Positions 51,353 to 58,083 of a stretch of 64,000 bases of DNA are shown in pieces. The stretch lies in contig NHDL02000001.1 in the NCBI GenBank assembly GCA_002167555.2, positions 136,114 through 200,113 on the forward strand. Direction: 5' to 3'. The notes beneath the pieces were generated by a model that saw only the letters and a list, made by a program, of their open reading frames with translations, made no database searches and was not told the DNA's origin. A program made the position numbers and the translations under genes. Within the stretch, counting starts at the first letter, position 1. Each line of letters begins with the position of its first letter. This DNA is from Deltaproteobacteria bacterium TMED58. GTDB taxonomy: Bacteria > Desulfobacterota_D > UBA1144.

Positions 51353-51973
51353 CTAGTCACCATGCAATCCACACTCTCTTTTTTCTTCCACCTTAGTGGG
51401 GTCAAAATAATCATACTCATTCTCTAGTGAGTATTCTTTTAAGTAATTATCTAAATCCTTGTCTGACGAGTAGTAAAAGGGACATGCTTTTATCAAACCA
51501 CTCTTGGTTTGACTAATAACATCGATAGTGTCTCTAAAGTTTGTTTGACCTTTCCTTAAGTTTGTTATCCAAAGATTAGGGCTTAATTCTTCCATCGCCC
51601 TTCGGAAGGGCTCGAGTTTAACTTGTTCTGTAAACTCTTTATGAATTGGATCATTAATACTTGGAATTCCACCCATAATAATATCTCTAAATTCTTTTGT
51701 AAGCTTGGGGGCATATATATGAATATTAAGGTTAAATCTCTTTATAATCTTTTCCGCATATGTATAAGTAGCCTTGGTGTTGTAACCTGTGTCGCACCAA
51801 ACTACTTTAATCTCAGGCATTACCGTGGAGCATAAATGAAGTATTGTGCATTCATAGGGTCTAAAGTTAGTAGTTAAAATAGGATTTTCATATTGATTTA
51901 GGGCCCACCTGACTATCTCATCTGGTCTTTTATTTTTTAACTTATTATTGAGATCAATAATATTTTCATTCAT
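51353..51973 (-). CDS. cysH: APS/PAPS reductase-family protein CysH
   Basis: 206 aa. PP-loop fold reductase that releases sulfite from adenylyl sulfate. The N-terminal substrate-binding part has TTNFRPYECTILHL and VVWCDTGYN. The C-terminal RECGLHGD holds the catalytic Cys201. The CC...CxxC pairs that bind the 4Fe-4S cluster of APS reductases are absent, which points to the PAPS type, yet no APS kinase (CysC) is encoded in this operon. It is the last gene of the sulfur operon and overlaps the permease gene by 4 nt. Confidence 0.85.
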   Translation of the reverse strand: MNENIIDLNNKLKNKRPDEIVRWALNQYENPILTTNFRPYECTILHLCSTVMPEIKVVWCDTGYNTKATYTYAEKIIKRFNLNIHIYAPKLTKEFRDIIMGGIPSINDPIHKEFTEQVKLEPFRRAMEELSPNLWITNLRKGQTNFRDTIDVISQTKSGLIKACPFYYSSDKDLDNYLKEYSLENEYDYFDPTKVEEKRECGLHGD

Positions 51974-52953
51974 TTTGATACCTCAATTAGAATATTGGTT
52001 ATTAGAAAAGCTATAACGATGCATGCGATTGGAGCTAGAACCCAAAAAGATACTATTTGGAAAACACTTTTCTTTTTAAAGGTTTCTCTAAAACCAGAAG
52101 TTGAACAAGAAAAACCTATTATTCCCGAAGTTATTATTTCTGCCATAGATATAGGTATCCCGTAGAGAGATGCTATTGCAAGAAAAGCTCCACCAGTAAA
52201 GTTTACAGATATTGCTCTTATAACAGAGAGTGATGTTATATTGGTTGCAATATTTTCAATAATCCTTCCACCAAAGATTAACGCTCCAAATGCCATAAAA
52301 AAACCTGAAATAAGTGCGGCATCATTTGCAGTAATTAGGTTAAGTCCCACAATTGGCGCTGCAGCATTAGCAGCGTTATTCGCACCTGCAAAAAGAGCTA
52401 GAAAGCATGCGGAGGAAATCAATAGGAATTTTAAAGTAGAGCTAATTTTTTGTGTTCTTCTTCCATCTAGACTAATTAACTTATCAATTAATTCAAAATA
52501 AATGTATTTACCTATTAGATAATTTAGTAACCAAATGGCGATAGGTGTAGCTATCCACCAAGCCACAATTTCAATCATTTTTTCTATATTTAGGGTATTG
52601 AATCCTAGTCCTATACCAAATATTGTGCAAACAACTATATGAGTTGTAGCTATTGGGATTTTAAATTTATTCGCCGCTAAGATTGATAAAATTGGAATTA
52701 TCAAAATCAAATAAATGAAATAGTAATTTAATTTTATAAATTCTATGCTTAATAATCCTCTTCCAACTGTTGCAACAACATCTTCGCCAAATAGTGAGGC
52801 TCCCATGAAAACAAATATAAAAGCTAAAGAAACGGTTCCAAGTTTTGACATTATTTTAGCGCCAAACACCGTAGACATTGAAGAGGCTGCATTATTTGCT
52901 CCAACATTGAAGGCTAGTACCAAGCTCAATATTGAGATTATGAAAACTTCCAT
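51970..52953 (-). CDS. PiT-family anion permease, probable sulfate transporter (CysP-like)
   Basis: 327 aa, about ten transmembrane segments arranged as the two inverted halves of the PiT family. Each half has the duplicated GANNAA signature (NVGANNAASSMSTVFGAK and FAGANNAANAAAPIVG). The family is usually a phosphate transporter. In this operon it sits between cysN and cysH, as CysP does in Bacillus, so sulfate import is the better guess. It overlaps cysN by 1 nt and cysH by 4 nt. No ABC-type sulfate transporter is in the window. Confidence 0.82.
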   Translation of the reverse strand: MEVFIISILSLVLAFNVGANNAASSMSTVFGAKIMSKLGTVSLAFIFVFMGASLFGEDVVATVGRGLLSIEFIKLNYYFIYLILIIPILSILAANKFKIPIATTHIVVCTIFGIGLGFNTLNIEKMIEIVAWWIATPIAIWLLNYLIGKYIYFELIDKLISLDGRRTQKISSTLKFLLISSACFLALFAGANNAANAAAPIVGLNLITANDAALISGFFMAFGALIFGGRIIENIATNITSLSVIRAISVNFTGGAFLAIASLYGIPISMAEIITSGIIGFSCSTSGFRETFKKKSVFQIVSFWVLAPIACIVIAFLITNILIEVSK

Positions 52954-54206
52954 TAATTAATGATTCCTGCAGCAACTGTATTATTTGAATCAGTATCAAT
53001 AATTATGAATGAGCCTAATACTTTGTTAGATTCATAAGTATCAAAAACAATATCATTTTGAACTTTTATTATCACATTACCAATATCGTTCATTTTAATT
53101 GAATCCTCTGACTGTATTTTTTCAAGCGATTCAATATTAATTTTATCCACAACTTCTTTAATTAAGATTTTTGAAATTTTATTACTATGTTTTATAAGAT
53201 ATTTTTTGTTAGGGTCAAGTTCTTCGTCGCTCATCCAGCATATTTGAGCCGAAATTGTACTATCTATCCTAGGGTTATAATTTAATGATGTAACCGTATC
53301 TCCTCTTGAGATTTGAAGCTCATCTTTTATCAATAATGTTCCTGATTGATTTTTGGTTATTTTATTTGTATTTGAGCCTGATACTATAATATTTTTTATT
53401 TCAGATTCTTTCTTACCTGGAAGAATACGAATTTTATCTCCAATTTTAAATTCTCCAGAAGCTGTCATTCCCATGTAACCACGAAAATCATTAATTTCGT
53501 CATTATCAACTCTAGATACCAATTGAACAGGGAATGATGAATGACTTGATTCATCATTAGAATGTACAACAGTGTTTTCTAGCATACTTAATAATGTTTC
53601 CCCTTTATACCAAGGTAAATTATCCCTTCTTTTGACAATCATATCTCCATGGAGCGCAGAAATTGGAATAAATTTTATGGATTTTATAGATAATTTTTTT
53701 GCAATTTGATTAAATTCATTTTTGATTGAAAAAAATTTTTTTTCACTATATTCAATAAGATCCATTTTATTTACAGCAACAATTATATCTTTGATACCCA
53801 GCAAATAGCTTATATATAAATGCCTTCTAGATTGTTCTAATACACCTTTTCTAGAATCAATTAATATTATAGCTAGATTTGAATTGCTAGCACCAGTGAA
53901 CATATTTCTAGTGTATTCTTCATGTCCAGGAGTATCGGCTATTATGAATTTTCTTTTTGTAGTAGAGAAGTATCTGTAAGCTACATCAATCGTAATCCCT
54001 TGCTCTCTTTCATCTTTTAAACCATCGGTTAGATGAGCAAGATCAATATTTTTTTGATTTTTCAATTTCGAGTCATTTTCTAATGCTTCAAGTTGATCTG
54101 AAAATATTCCTTTCGAATCATAAAGTAACCTACCTATTAAAGTTGATTTTCCATCATCTACACTTCCAGCTGTAGCAAATCTAAGTATTCCAATTGAATC
54201 TTTCAA
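52953..54206 (-). CDS. cysN: Sulfate adenylyltransferase GTPase subunit CysN
   Basis: About 417 aa, an EF-Tu-like GTPase with GSVDDGKST (P-loop), DTPGHEEY and NKMDL motifs and two beta-barrel domains. It couples GTP hydrolysis to APS formation by CysD. It ends without a CysC (APS kinase) domain. The start is uncertain: I chose TTG 54206, one base after the cysD stop, with AAGGAAGG 11 nt upstream. An in-frame ATG at 54254 lies within cysD and would add 16 basic residues. Confidence 0.9.
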   Translation of the reverse strand: MKDSIGILRFATAGSVDDGKSTLIGRLLYDSKGIFSDQLEALENDSKLKNQKNIDLAHLTDGLKDEREQGITIDVAYRYFSTTKRKFIIADTPGHEEYTRNMFTGASNSNLAIILIDSRKGVLEQSRRHLYISYLLGIKDIIVAVNKMDLIEYSEKKFFSIKNEFNQIAKKLSIKSIKFIPISALHGDMIVKRRDNLPWYKGETLLSMLENTVVHSNDESSHSSFPVQLVSRVDNDEINDFRGYMGMTASGEFKIGDKIRILPGKKESEIKNIIVSGSNTNKITKNQSGTLLIKDELQISRGDTVTSLNYNPRIDSTISAQICWMSDEELDPNKKYLIKHSNKISKILIKEVVDKINIESLEKIQSEDSIKMNDIGNVIIKVQNDIVFDTYESNKVLGSFIIIDTDSNNTVAAGIIN

Positions 54207-54207
54207 T

Positions 54208-55092
54208 TTAAAAATAACCTTCCTTTTTTTTATCTTCCATAGAATTTGAACCATGATCTATAATTCTTGTCTCTCTTTCACTTCTCTTTGCTCTGATTGT
54301 CTCTTCTATTATCATGTCAATATTAGTTGCATTAGACTTTACGGCGCCTGTACATGGCATACAGCCAAGTGTTCTAAATCTCGAGTTGACCTCTGTTAAA
54401 TCAGAATTTTTATTTTCTTCACTAGGTATTAAATTTTTACCTTTTAATACCATCTTTCTTTTTTTTGAGAAATATAATGGAGTAATTTTTATTTTTTCAT
54501 GTTTAATGTAATTCCAAATATCAGATTCTGTCCAACTCGATAAAGGAAAAATTCTTACCGATTCGTTTTCATCTATTTCTGCATTGAAAATATTCCATAA
54601 TTCAGGTTTTTGAGACTTAGGATTCCATTGTCCAAAAGAATCTCTAAAAGAAAATACTCTTTCTTTTGCTCTTGATTTTTCTTCATCCCTTCTGGCTCCA
54701 CCTATAGCAGCATTGAAATTATACTTACTGAGTGCATTCAATAGAGCCTGAGTTTTTAGAGCACCACAACACTTCGCTATTCCGTTTTTTGCTGGATGAA
54801 AACCTTTTTTAATAGCTTCTTCATTACGATGAACAATGAGCTTTGCTCCGATTTCTTTAGTAAACGAGTCTCGGAATTCATACATCTCTCTAAACTTGTA
54901 CCCCGTATCTACATGTAGAAGAGGAAACGGTATTCTAGATGGATAAAAAGCTTTTCTAGCCAAATGGAGCATAACACTAGAGTCTTTTCCCACAGAATAA
55001 AGCATCACAGGGTTAGTAAATTCAGCTACTACCTCTCTTAATATAAATATTGCCTCACTTTCTAGTTCTTTTAGATAGGAATTCGTACTCAT
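54208..55092 (-). CDS. cysD: Sulfate adenylyltransferase catalytic subunit CysD
   Basis: 294 aa. PP-loop family: LYSVGKDSSVMLHLARKAF, HVDTGYKFREMYEFRD, and AAIGGARRDEEKSRAKERVFSF followed by RFRTLGCMPCTGAV. Forms APS from ATP and sulfate with CysN. Close to the E. coli length. Its ATG is adjacent to the cysI stop. Confidence 0.96.
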   Translation of the reverse strand: MSTNSYLKELESEAIFILREVVAEFTNPVMLYSVGKDSSVMLHLARKAFYPSRIPFPLLHVDTGYKFREMYEFRDSFTKEIGAKLIVHRNEEAIKKGFHPAKNGIAKCCGALKTQALLNALSKYNFNAAIGGARRDEEKSRAKERVFSFRDSFGQWNPKSQKPELWNIFNAEIDENESVRIFPLSSWTESDIWNYIKHEKIKITPLYFSKKRKMVLKGKNLIPSEENKNSDLTEVNSRFRTLGCMPCTGAVKSNATNIDMIIEETIRAKRSERETRIIDHGSNSMEDKKKEGYF

Positions 55093-56784
55093 TTATATGA
55101 CCTCTTTCCTTAAAAGTTCAAAATCAGTTCTATTGCAAAAATCTCCAAAAGGCTCTTCCTCTGCATTTTTATTTTTTTTCCAATAATTAACTAATTTTGA
55201 AATTTTATATGCAAGCTCGCTATCATCTACGAGTTCCATGAACAACTTGTTCAATCGAGTTCCGTAAAAATCTCCACCTAAATATATATTATATTTTTTT
55301 GCTGTGGCACCAATTAAACCTACCTCTGATACAGGTGGTCTTGAACAAGAATTAGGGCAACCACTCATTCTAATTTTTATTTTTTCGTCCCCTAGTCCCA
55401 TATGTTCTAGCTCATCTATAAGAGAAGGTAAGAATCTTTCAGCTTCGGCTACGGCTAAACTACACGTAGGAAGTGCAGGGCATGCCATCGACGCTAACCT
55501 CAAATTAGAATATCTTTCATTAGTATCAATATTATGCTCTGCTAACATTTCCTTGATACCCTCAACATTTTGTTTATCAATATTTACAAGAATTAAGTCC
55601 TGAGTAGCTGTTAATCTTGTCTCCACATTGTATTTCTTTATTATTTTTGCCAAGCCTGATTTTAACTTCACAGAACCTTTGTCTTTAATTCTTCCATTCT
55701 CAACAAAGATTCCACAATAAAACTTCCCTGTTTGTTTTTGTTTATGCCAACCGTAGTAATTATCAATTTTCGTTAAAGACTTTTTTATGTATTCATTAAG
55801 CTTAAATCCAATTCTTAGTTCAAGTTCTGCTCGAAACTTATTTACTCCCCAATTTTCTAGTAAATATTTCATTCTAGCTTGCTTTCTATCAGTTCTAACT
55901 CCATAATCTCTTTGAATACTAATTATTCCTTTGACTACATCAATAACTTGATCTTCTTCACACATACCTAATTCATCTGCTAACCTTGGAAAAGTTTGTG
56001 ATTGTCGATGATGGCTTCCCAACCCACCACCAACTAAAATATTAAAGAATTTCTTATCACCATCTATAACAGGGAGTATTCCAATATCCTGTGTATAGAT
56101 ATCTATAGAATTATCCAGCTGATGTCCTACTCCTATCTTAAATTTCCTAGGCAAGTATGTTTTTTTATAGAGTGAATCTTCTTCAATTTTATCCTTATTT
56201 ATTTTAGTATTTATTTTTTCACCATCTACCCATATTTCATAATATCCTTTAGATTTTGCCAGAGTCTCTTTATCAATCTCTTTTGCAAGCGATTGTGCAT
56301 CATAACTAAAATCTTCTCTAATATCCGAAATTGGAGAGGCAACGGTGTTTCGTACAATATCACCACAAGCACCATAAGAAGTTATTAGATTTTTATTTAA
56401 GGTATTAACTAGTTCTTTTAAATTTTTTTTGCCAATTCCATGAAATTGAAAACATTCTCTAGTTGTTATTCTTAATGTTGGATTTGCCCACTTACTTGTG
56501 ATTTCATCCATTATTAGCCATTGTTCAGGTGTTATGTTTCCTCCACCTGGGTTTTTTGTTCTAATCATAAAACTATAATCCTTTTCTTGCTTGGCCTTCA
56601 TCAAAGCCTTTCTTTTATCTCTATCATCTTGCTGGTAAATTCCATGGAATTTTAAGACTTGTTGATTATCACCTGTAAATTTTATGGACTCAGAATCCAT
56701 TAGTTCTTCATGAATCGTACCTCTCAATCCATTACTTGATTCTTTAATTCCTTCATTTTTTACTAGCTTTAATTCTTTTTTCAT
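55093..56784 (-). CDS. cysI: Assimilatory sulfite reductase haemoprotein subunit CysI
   Basis: 563 aa. Six-electron reduction of sulfite to sulfide on a siroheme coupled to a 4Fe-4S cluster. The cluster/siroheme ligands are ACPALPTCSLAVAEAERF and SGCPNSCSRP. Ferredoxin-like repeat pieces MIRTKNPGGGNITPEQW and RITTRECFQFHGIGK are present. The start is ATG 56784, 3 nt after GGAGAGG; a TTG at 56796 lies upstream of that site. No flavoprotein cysJ follows, so the electron donor (ferredoxin or a distant CysJ) is unknown. First full-length gene of the operon and downstream of an elaborate regulatory leader. Confidence 0.95.
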   Translation of the reverse strand: MKKELKLVKNEGIKESSNGLRGTIHEELMDSESIKFTGDNQQVLKFHGIYQQDDRDKRKALMKAKQEKDYSFMIRTKNPGGGNITPEQWLIMDEITSKWANPTLRITTRECFQFHGIGKKNLKELVNTLNKNLITSYGACGDIVRNTVASPISDIREDFSYDAQSLAKEIDKETLAKSKGYYEIWVDGEKINTKINKDKIEEDSLYKKTYLPRKFKIGVGHQLDNSIDIYTQDIGILPVIDGDKKFFNILVGGGLGSHHRQSQTFPRLADELGMCEEDQVIDVVKGIISIQRDYGVRTDRKQARMKYLLENWGVNKFRAELELRIGFKLNEYIKKSLTKIDNYYGWHKQKQTGKFYCGIFVENGRIKDKGSVKLKSGLAKIIKKYNVETRLTATQDLILVNIDKQNVEGIKEMLAEHNIDTNERYSNLRLASMACPALPTCSLAVAEAERFLPSLIDELEHMGLGDEKIKIRMSGCPNSCSRPPVSEVGLIGATAKKYNIYLGGDFYGTRLNKLFMELVDDSELAYKISKLVNYWKKNKNAEEEPFGDFCNRTDFELLRKEVI

Positions 56785-56819
56785 ATTCCTCTCCAAATTT
56801 TTTTTATTAAAATGCTTTG

Positions 56820-56886
56820 CTAATTTGATATGAATAAAACCATTCCTTAGAAATGAAGTACTTACTTGATTGAAATATCAAATTAG
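56820..56886 (-). promoter_or_regulatory. 12-bp perfect inverted repeat between the leader ORF and cysI
   Basis: Arms at 56820-56831 and 56875-56886 are exactly complementary (12 bp). The 43-nt interval holds an additional CATTTC/GGAATG hairpin. The downstream arm ends ~25 nt before the cysI ribosome-binding site and the upstream arm begins 14 nt after the leader-ORF stop. There is no T-run after the stem, so it is not a simple intrinsic terminator. It may be the expression platform of an attenuator. Confidence 0.55.
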
Positions 56887-56899
56887 TATTATTTTGTTA

Positions 56900-56983
56900 T
56901 TAGTTACAACAACAAGAGCTTGATTGATTAATACAGCATAAATTTTTATCATTTAAGGATAAAAAGGTTTTGAAAATAAACAT
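56900..56983 (-). CDS. Polycysteine leader peptide of the sulfate-assimilation operon
   Basis: 27 codons: ATG at 56983, TAA at 56900-56902, with GCGGAG 6 nt before the ATG. The peptide reads MFIFKTFLSLNDKNL, then CCINQ, SSS, CCC, N. Five of 27 residues are Cys and three are consecutive UGU codons just before the stop. That is the design of an amino-acid-specific attenuator: ribosomes should stall on the UGU run when Cys-tRNA is scarce. It is on the same strand as, and 115 nt upstream of, cysI. The frame is far too short for length statistics; the case rests on position, ribosome-binding site and Cys content. Confidence 0.68.
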   Translation of the reverse strand: MFIFKTFLSLNDKNLCCINQSSSCCCN

Positions 56984-57006
56984 AACAAACTCCGCAAATT
57001 AATTTG

Positions 57007-57086
57007 TAACTCTAAGAGGAAAGACAAACCAGATGTATGTCTTTGCTCTGTTTAGCAGTTATTTAAGGTCGCTGCAAGTAGAGTTA
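57007..57086 (-). promoter_or_regulatory. Alternative (anti-aptamer) fold overlapping the SAM aptamer
   Basis: TAACTCTA (57086-57079), which includes the aptamer's pseudoknot loop, is exactly complementary to TAGAGTTA (57014-57007). Between them AAAGACA/TGTCTTT (57044-57038/57026-57020) and AGAG/CTCT form a hairpin. Forming this fold destroys the SAM pseudoknot, as expected for a switch. TTCCTCT at 57021-57015 is also complementary to the AGAGGAA of the cysI ribosome-binding site. Confidence 0.5.
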
Positions 57087-57095
57087 AATGACGAC
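57046..57095 (-). promoter_or_regulatory. SAM-II/SAM-V-like S-adenosylmethionine riboswitch aptamer
   Basis: Read on the minus strand, P1 is GTCGT (57095-57091) paired with GCGAC (57072-57068, one wobble). Its loop is CATTTAACTCTACTTGCA and carries the AUUUAAC and UUGCA elements of SAM-II. The 3' tail contains UUAAAU and GCUAAA, then AGAG (57049-57046), which pairs with the loop CUCU (57083-57080) as the pseudoknot. Every landmark of the SAM-II consensus I remember is in order and spacing. It starts right at the expected transcript start of the sulfur operon. Confidence 0.75.
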
Positions 57096-57101
57096 GAATC
57101 A

Positions 57102-57131
57102 ATTATAGCACTATTTATTATTGAACATCAA
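57102..57131 (-). promoter_or_regulatory. Promoter of the sulfate-assimilation operon (TTGATG-18-TATAAT)
   Basis: Minus-strand -35 TTGATG (57131-57126), 18-nt spacer, consensus -10 TATAAT (57107-57102). Initiation near 57095-57099 places the SAM aptamer at the very 5' end and gives a leader of about 310 nt to cysI. Confidence 0.65.
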
Positions 57132-57153
57132 GTTTTTTTAAAAAATATTTAAT

Positions 57154-58083
57154 ATGATATATTATTTTTCTATGGATAATTCTAATTTTGAGATAATTAG
57201 TTTTTATAAGTTTATCAACTTAAAATTTACAAATAAATTAAAAGATGAGCTTTATGTAATTTGCAAGAAAAATTCTATTCTAGGAACAGTAATTCTTTCA
57301 AAAGAGGGAGTAAATGGGATGTTGGCAGGCTCTAAAGATTCTATTGAATTGATAACTAGTTTTTTTATCAAACACGGTGTTTTGATTGATGATTTTAAGT
57401 TTTCAAGCTCAGTAACTAAGCCTTTTCATAGGTTGAGAATAAAAATAAAAAAGGAAATTATTAGTCTCGGTCACCCCGAGCTATCTAATCCAAATGAACT
57501 GGTTGGGAAGTACGTTGAACCCGAGGATTGGAATAAATTAATTGAGGAAGAAAATGTTGTTCTAATTGATACTAGAAATAAGTATGAAACCTCTATTGGA
57601 ACATTTAAAAATGCAATCGTACCACCTTTGAGAAATTTTAAAGAATTTCCTAACTTTATTAAAAAAAATGATCTTAATAAAAATTCTAAAATCGCTATGT
57701 TCTGTACTGGTGGAATAAGATGTGAGAAAGCTAGCTCATATTTACTGAAGTCAGGTTTTAAGGAAGTCTTACATTTGCATGGAGGAATAATAAAATATTT
57801 GGAAACAGTTCCCTCAGAAGACTCTAAGTGGGAAGGTGAATGTTTTGTCTTTGATAATAGAGTTTCGGTAGAACAAAATCTTAAACAAGGTACCTACTTA
57901 AACTGTAATGGGTGTGGTGAACCTCTTAAAAAAGAAGAGGTTTTAAGCCCAAAATATAGAAAAGGAGTTTCATGTCCTAAATGTTATAATAGTTTGACAA
58001 AAAAGAAAATACAAAAATCATCAGAAAGACAAAAACAAATTGAATTATCAAAATTAAGGGGAGAGGTACATATAGGTGAGTAG
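57154..58083 (+). CDS. trhO: tRNA uridine(34) hydroxylase / rhodanese-domain protein TrhO
   Basis: 309 aa. An acylphosphatase-like N-terminal domain (TVILSKEGVNGMLAGS) is followed by a rhodanese domain with DTRNKYET and the active-site loop MFCTGGIRCEKAS (Cys184). A C-terminal zinc-like CNGCG...CPKC segment completes the YceA/TrhO pattern. It hydroxylates U34 of some tRNAs. ATG 57154 was taken; ATG 57172 is an alternative. It is divergent from the cys operon. Confidence 0.9.
   Translation: MIYYFSMDNSNFEIISFYKFINLKFTNKLKDELYVICKKNSILGTVILSKEGVNGMLAGSKDSIELITSFFIKHGVLIDDFKFSSSVTKPFHRLRIKIKKEIISLGHPELSNPNELVGKYVEPEDWNKLIEEENVVLIDTRNKYETSIGTFKNAIVPPLRNFKEFPNFIKKNDLNKNSKIAMFCTGGIRCEKASSYLLKSGFKEVLHLHGGIIKYLETVPSEDSKWEGECFVFDNRVSVEQNLKQGTYLNCNGCGEPLKKEEVLSPKYRKGVSCPKCYNSLTKKKIQKSSERQKQIELSKLRGEVHIGE

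Follow-up and report, generated by a model that had tools for sequence, protein, structure and literature searches.

Mycobacterial leader ORFs with runs of cysteine codons were reportedly tested by Canestrari et al. in 2020. The prediction of such poly-Cys leaders in Actinobacteria, where they lacked terminators, dates from 2005 (PMC1262725), and those of mycobacteria act as cysteine-responsive attenuators according to the papers that refer to this work (doi 10.1111/mmi.14498, cited by PMC9094748 and PMC13236596). Small ORFs under riboswitch control are likewise on record for M. tuberculosis, i.e. the B12 riboswitch with uPPE2 (PMC11260477) and the Mbox with its uORF (PMC12810186), and the abstracts and cited passages do not describe these uORFs as amino-acid sensors. 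SAM-II riboswitches usually have a promoter a few bases before P1 (PMC1273637).

The window, i.e. the whole stretch of 64,000 nucleotides that was analysed, features a leader upstream of the cysI operon that joins elements of both kinds. We consider it likely that it constitutes an RNA device with two inputs that governs the supply of sulfur, in which a SAM-II-type switch is combined with a Cys-run leader. As in tandem riboswitches, including those of the SAM-II/SAM-V type, two sensors are placed in series in one sulfur/methionine mRNA leader, but the second Dadabacteria sensor would be a translated codon run and not an aptamer (PMC9481103). A term search of that review for leader peptides or cysteine gave no mention of either, and the open-access literature on riboswitches in Dadabacteria yielded only incidental co-mention. 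The combination of riboswitch and Cys-run leader thus appears to be undescribed, each component being of a known kind. The genes behind the leader, all encoded on the reverse strand, are:

55093..56784, minus strand: cysI, sulfite reductase hemoprotein, first gene of the operon (Pfam NIR_SIR; NCBIfam NF010029, 676 bits, cutoff 457), SD at 56788-56794
54208..55092, minus strand: cysD (NF003587, 434 bits, cutoff 195)
52953..54254, minus strand: cysN (TIGR02034, 507 bits, cutoff 336)
51970..52953, minus strand: PiT-family transporter (Pfam PHO4; NF053884 sulfate permease, 198 bits, below the cutoff of 400)
51353..51973, minus strand: cysH-like PAPS/APS reductase (Pfam PAPS_reduct, 64.9 bits; PRK02090, 107 bits, below the cutoff of 154)

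The order cysI-cysD-cysN-PiT-cysH given in the initial annotation is right. The likely start of cysI is the ATG at 56784, preceded by the SD GGAGAGG, and not the TTG at 56796, and the distance from the leader ORF to cysI amounts to 115 nt. The PiT-family transporter is probably a CysP-like sulfate permease, judging from its family matches. A gene for a UPF0176/rhodanese-domain protein (TrhO-like) at 57154-58083 (+) is transcribed divergently from the riboswitch, and a similar gene resides at this place in at least two relatives (L019, L030).

The leader itself comprises:

56900..56983, minus strand: leader ORF of 27 codons encoding MFIFKTFLSLNDKNLCCINQSSSCCCN, read from the sequence and conserved at related loci
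56990..56993, minus strand: Shine-Dalgarno sequence GGAG of the leader ORF, from the sequence
56906..56914, minus strand: UGU UGU UGU Cys run, the proposed sensor codons, from the sequence; additional UGC UGU at 56933-56938

The reverse complement of 56983-56900 (-) reads exactly ATG TTT ATT TTC AAA ACC TTT TTA TCC TTA AAT GAT AAA AAT TTA TGC TGT ATT AAT CAA TCA AGC TCT TGT TGT TGT AAC TAA. The ORF of 27 codons with five Cys in total, the C-terminus SSSCCCN and GCGGAG 5' of the ATG had been noted before, and this description is borne out by the sequence, by its being the only one of 477 in the window with three Cys in a row and by conservation at 15 distinct loci. Among the 477 ATG-started ORFs of 15-45 codons in the window, an SD-like motif precedes 29, and three consecutive Cys are encoded in the leader ORF only. 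The pattern TGYTGYTGYNNN-stop occurs at eight sites in the 1.01-Mb genome, one of which, the leader ORF, closes an ATG-started ORF; these genome-wide counts of Cys runs are pattern searches, and the CysCysCys-X-stop pattern misses leaders with more codons after the run, e.g. CCCNYK. The leader ORF is beyond chance. An ORF ending in CCCK and equipped with an SD (L081), which emerged from a genome-wide search for TGYTGYTGY, was rejected as a leader because it sits within a long coding frame.

The initial annotation identified the Cys-codon leader correctly and overlooked that a SAM-II-type riboswitch is situated directly upstream of it:

57102..57131, minus strand: sigma-70-type promoter TTGATG - 18 nt - TATAAT with TG before the -10 box, from the sequence; start expected at or just before the aptamer
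57046..57095, minus strand: SAM-II-type aptamer with P1 and P2 pseudoknot and the core AUUUA, UUGCA, UUAAA and GCUAAA (Rfam RF00521 match)
57020..57044, minus strand: expression-platform hairpin AAAGACA...TGTCTTT, with covariation; predicted to be lengthened by AGAG/CUCU in the SAM-free fold
57006..57019, minus strand: CCUCUUAGAGUUAC with CUCU, for which two partners are predicted, riboswitch AGAG in the SAM-free state and the leader SD GGAG in the SAM-bound state, both pairings being kept in more than 90% of cells

The promoter ends 7 nt before P1. A crude script detected a TATAAT-like box not more than 10 nt upstream in 25 of the 30 riboswitch copies, and the others have a visible one too; the transcript probably starts at the riboswitch. 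Rfam RF00521 (SAM-II, SAM_alpha) matches 57105-57031 (-) with 31.9 bits, at E-values of 5.5e-4 (14-kb search, all families) and about 9e-6 (9.3e-6; this family, per genome). The gathering score of 36 bits is missed by the window copy and in every genome examined, the best relative reaching 35.8, and the element is therefore named SAM-II-type. In 29 distinct copies, pairing is kept in 100% of cells for P1 and in 96.6% for the P2 pseudoknot. The core AUUU, UUGCA, UUAAA and GCUAAA aligns with the Rfam consensus in related copies and is present in the window sequence. The aptamer probably senses S-adenosylmethionine. With SAM-II riboswitches (RF00521; PMC1273637) the element shares P1 and the P2 pseudoknot, the core nucleotides, a promoter few bases before P1 and the company of methionine/sulfur genes. 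It differs from them (RF00521; PMC1273637) in that the Dadabacteria copies stay below gathering, possess an added platform hairpin and in three of the four copies in the genome would regulate a leader peptide and not an enzyme.

The platform adjoins the leader Shine-Dalgarno sequence. Its hairpin AAAGAC...GUCUUU is paired in 95% of cells and contains five pairs with two-sided changes in the 29 copies; for the same set the covariation score of the whole riboswitch structure exceeds that of all 500 shuffles, such that covariation in the alignment supports the expression-platform hairpin. The AGAG strand of P2 can alternatively pair with CUCU, by which the hairpin is lengthened; the helix lengthened in this way has 95.8% of its cells paired and is the form that RNAalifold picks unaided. 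Pairing of CUCU with the leader SD is possible in 96.3% of cells. AGAG thus has two mutually exclusive partners and, given the alternatives AGAG/CUCU and CUCU/SD, SAM should free CUCU onto the SD while lack of SAM should occupy CUCU. When the window copy was folded with the aptamer blocked, the modelled probability of SD-CUCU pairing was 0.99 in the SAM-bound and 0.00 in the free state. Modelled sequestration of the SD reached at least 0.48 in eight of the 26 copies computed (out of 29), and one copy was sequestered in both states. We infer a translational OFF switch for the leader. An SD sequestered in the mRNA leader is also found in the S. meliloti metA SAM-II riboswitch, where the riboswitch SD drives translation from the downstream metA AUG and the abstract reports no separate Cys-run peptide (PMC9373788).

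A further pairing concerns the leader SD and the codons preceding the Cys run, a complementarity that had escaped notice in the earlier description of the leader:

56916..56922, minus strand: CAAGCUC, part of the codons for Gln-Ser-Ser-Ser, with complementarity to GAGUUUG at the leader SD

The motif reads CAAGCUC in the window leader and CAAACUC in most others. Summed over 15 leaders, the energy of pairing with the SD is -171 kcal/mol as compared with -116 +/- 9 for synonymous recodings and lies below all 1000 of them, whereby the leaders are related and their independence is overstated. The comparison points to selection at the RNA level on the codons before the Cys run.

The leader at cysI had been noted as a single case; it is indeed present, and the unit of riboswitch and Cys run was overlooked at two further sulfur loci. 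In a DNA search of the organism's own genome, the stretch upstream of, and including, leader SD and ATG proved to be repeated at three other sites, and since the next-best RF00521 match has only 14.8 bits, the genome contains four riboswitch copies. Three of them open a Cys-run ORF and one directly opens a threonine-synthase-like gene. Protein names were taken from Pfam and NCBIfam, several matches being under the curated NCBIfam cutoffs. The first of the additional copies (L009) precedes MVEIISVLHACLADTCCCNFTNSCCCNYK (followed by a stop) ahead of a gene for a rhodanese-family mercaptopyruvate/thiosulfate sulfurtransferase; this gene is followed by an ORF that resembles SufU/NifU by eye. The second (L006) precedes MVKxFSVxFSNTNTSCCNFSNLCCCNYR and a stop, with x standing for a codon with an undetermined base, ahead of a gene for a protein of the SBP56 family, to which methanethiol oxidase belongs. 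The third (L007) lies directly before the threonine-synthase-like gene, without a peptide:

L007 1619-2860 (G000:C6:36419-37660): threonine-synthase-like PLP enzyme with a SAM-II-type riboswitch directly ahead

A second threonine-synthase-like gene in the genome is 27% identical and lacks a riboswitch, and a search of the genome for the MetB/MetY/MetZ family gave weak partial matches, none of them convincing. Streptomyces has an enzyme that makes homocysteine from O-phosphohomoserine. On the grounds of the second gene and the weak MetB/MetY/MetZ matches, the SAM-II-controlled protein may be an O-phosphohomoserine-dependent homocysteine synthase. If so, the methionine step would sense SAM only, while the supply of sulfide would sense SAM and cysteine. 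Genome G008 contains two near-identical SAM-II-controlled threonine-synthase-like genes on different contigs (G008:C14:17553 and G008:C20:17081).

A pattern scan of named genomes located the riboswitch element in marine Candidatus Dadabacteria and in unnamed marine MAGs; viral contigs did not contain a copy of the pattern. Six genomes from two genera provided 15 distinct leaders whose aptamer is intact; six of them stand at cysI, six at the sulfurtransferase gene and three at SBP56. These counts are not independent because the leaders share ancestry. All 15 end in at least CCC followed by one to three codons and a stop, the stop being uncertain in one SBP56 leader due to undetermined bases. 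The run follows the ATG at distances of 16, 17, 20, 22, 23 or 27 codons, i.e. at six lengths and always in frame. Cys makes up 21% of the leader residues as compared with 1.2% in ten ordinary proteins encoded in the window, and the Cys codons (79 TGT and 10 TGC) vary synonymously while the run is kept. The alignment of cysI leaders that had been suggested as a check shows the Cys run in six of six genomes with a riboswitch at cysI and drift of the N-terminal residues, and a Cys-codon leader upstream of sulfate assimilation outside Actinobacteria, as originally proposed, is supported by this conservation in six genomes. In the genera in which it was found, the threonine-synthase-like gene is preceded by the riboswitch and by no peptide. 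In one genome, at L055 3668-3820 before SBP56, the riboswitch has lost GCUAAA, that is its P2 half. The leader MLIISQVCSCFRLLNCFCGFNNIH is still recognisable there by comparison with that of L036 (MLxISKxxSCFCLLNCCCCS...), its CCCC having decayed to CFCG. Joint decay of riboswitch and Cys run, read from this one case, is what linked function predicts.

It is conceivable, albeit improbable, that the ORF encodes a functional Cys-rich microprotein, e.g. a binder of thiols, sulfur or metal, that is made at low SAM and simply forms the first gene of each operon. An own SD and start under riboswitch control and the retention of Cys at many loci would fit such a protein, but outside the C-terminal Cys block the leader sequence is barely conserved and the N-terminal parts drift, whereas cysI itself is 70-84% identical. 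Furthermore, the ORF has no match to a Pfam or PHROGs family, the codons before the run look constrained at the RNA level and its position is always directly before a sulfur gene. Somewhat less probable still is a real regulatory uORF in which the Cys run acts via the nascent peptide, by redox- or metal-dependent arrest, and not via the supply of Cys-tRNA. Consecutive Cys and some extra pairs or triplets might coordinate metal or become linked by disulfides inside the exit tunnel; however, the downstream genes all concern sulfur supply, and upstream Cys vary in position and number such that the near-terminal run of at least three alone is constant. We regard it as very unlikely that UGUUGUUGU is a structural or protein-binding motif of the RNA and the ORF incidental. 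Such a motif would accord with the last three Cys codons being all UGU in 13 of the 15 leaders and with the run adjoining a hairpin in the sulfurtransferase/SBP56 group, but UGC replaces UGU in the other two leaders, additional in-frame Cys are present upstream and at each of the six distances the run shares its frame with an ATG that has an SD before it, with no stop between. A functionless chance ORF in a riboswitch 5' UTR, for which its shortness and lack of a database family could be quoted, is contradicted by conservation at 15 distinct loci in six genomes against a background of one in 477 in the window, and hardly deserves consideration.

Between the Cys run and cysI, the following elements were noted:

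56875..56886, minus strand: 5' arm CTAATTTGATAT of the post-leader hairpin; can also pair locally with ATCAAGT at 56864-56870
56820..56831, minus strand: 3' arm ATATCAAATTAG of a long hairpin located between the leader and cysI, in six orthologues

In the six cysI leaders the long hairpin is paired in 84.8% of cells and four of its 11 pairs have two-sided changes, with 11 of 500 shuffles being equally well paired. The sulfurtransferase and SBP56 leaders have a common hairpin just 5' of the downstream SD with weak covariation support, and in most models the downstream SD is within the extension of that hairpin. These pairing statistics for the leader-to-gene RNA are based on six to nine related sequences only, and the folding z-scores are unremarkable (means of -0.55 and -1.29). 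A common hairpin directly after CCC in the sulfurtransferase/SBP56 group was discarded, as two sequences fold in a different register and its covariation does not clearly exceed that of shuffles. A classical transcription attenuator was rejected as well because no terminator-like site, and hence no intrinsic terminator, is present in 56750-57200. Neither is a stalled ribosome likely to simply free the downstream SD: folding models with a ribosome on the Cys codons give no consistent change, and the stability of the RNA between leader and gene is not out of the ordinary. Control at the level of translation, or an effect on RNA decay or via Rho, is more likely than classical attenuation, and there is a faint hint that the last step is translational rather than terminator-based.

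The two-input device could then work as follows. With SAM bound, the P2 pseudoknot would hold AGAG, CUCU would be free to mask the leader SD and the leader would stay untranslated. When SAM is scarce, AGAG/CUCU would lengthen the platform hairpin and the leader would be translated, its CCC run near the stop serving as a gauge of cysteinyl-tRNA. With ample cysteine, the ribosome would complete the leader and depart; with cysteine in short supply, it would wait on the UGU codons, the fold of the downstream RNA would change and expression of the cysI operon would rise. The waiting ribosome would also cover CAAGCUC and thereby expose the leader's own SD. What the sequences and their comparison show are the parts, their conservation, their recurrence at sulfur genes and the alternative pairings; SAM binding, ribosome stalling and the direction in which control acts are inferred. 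The series arrangement predicts that a shortage of cysteine would evoke little response as long as SAM is abundant.

Sulfide or transferable sulfur is required for cysteine and methionine alike. The three operons with a Cys leader can be read as routes to this sulfur, i.e. sulfate reduction, methanethiol oxidation and the sulfurtransferase. On balance, we lean towards a two-input regulon in which the SAM riboswitch gates the reading of a leader that senses cysteinyl-tRNA, sulfide supply answers to both pools and the methionine-side enzyme has the SAM switch alone, and which represents a second, independently evolved family of cysteine-sensing leaders outside Actinobacteria. The genes for sulfurtransferase and SBP56, which are located outside the cysI operon, gain a testable role through the common device. 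If true, poly-Cys leaders with a sensing role have also arisen outside Actinobacteria, and a single leader can link a metabolite riboswitch in series with a sensor made of amino-acid codons; the device would likewise show how uncultured, streamlined bacteria of the ocean keep sulfate reduction, the use of methanethiol and sulfur transfer in step.

Actinobacterial poly-Cys leaders and those seen here have in common a short ORF with a Cys run near the stop ahead of several cysteine/sulfur operons per genome, and an intrinsic terminator is not evident in either case. The mycobacterial ORFs are leaderless with the AUG at the 5' end, whereas those of Dadabacteria have by sequence the SD GGAG, a 5' UTR of about 110 nt and a SAM-II-type riboswitch before the ORF. 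Dadabacteria are a distant phylum, and the gene set consists here of the cysI operon, sulfurtransferase and SBP56. The Dadabacteria leader would act in the manner of the poly-Cys uORFs of mycobacteria without being a member of that group. With the B12/uPPE2 and Mbox uORFs of M. tuberculosis it would have in common that a translational riboswitch controls a small ORF before the regulated gene, and in the case of uPPE2 translation of the small ORF is stated to set expression of the following gene (PMC11260477). uPPE2 overlaps the start of its gene (termination-reinitiation), whereas 45-120 nt separate the leader stop from the downstream SD in Dadabacteria.

The initial annotation had suggested an independent or much wider mechanism. 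Because the architecture differs, an origin independent of mycobacteria is likely, whereas wider spread is not borne out: neither a riboswitch nor a Cys leader was present at the cysI loci examined, be it in the genera g2, g3 and g4, which belong to the same family, or in further families of the class. In genus g3, two loci (L071 and L074) feature repeats such as AGAAACCCGTT and AGAAACTCATT roughly 50-150 nt upstream of cysI, and these promoter repeats are perhaps operators of a protein regulator.
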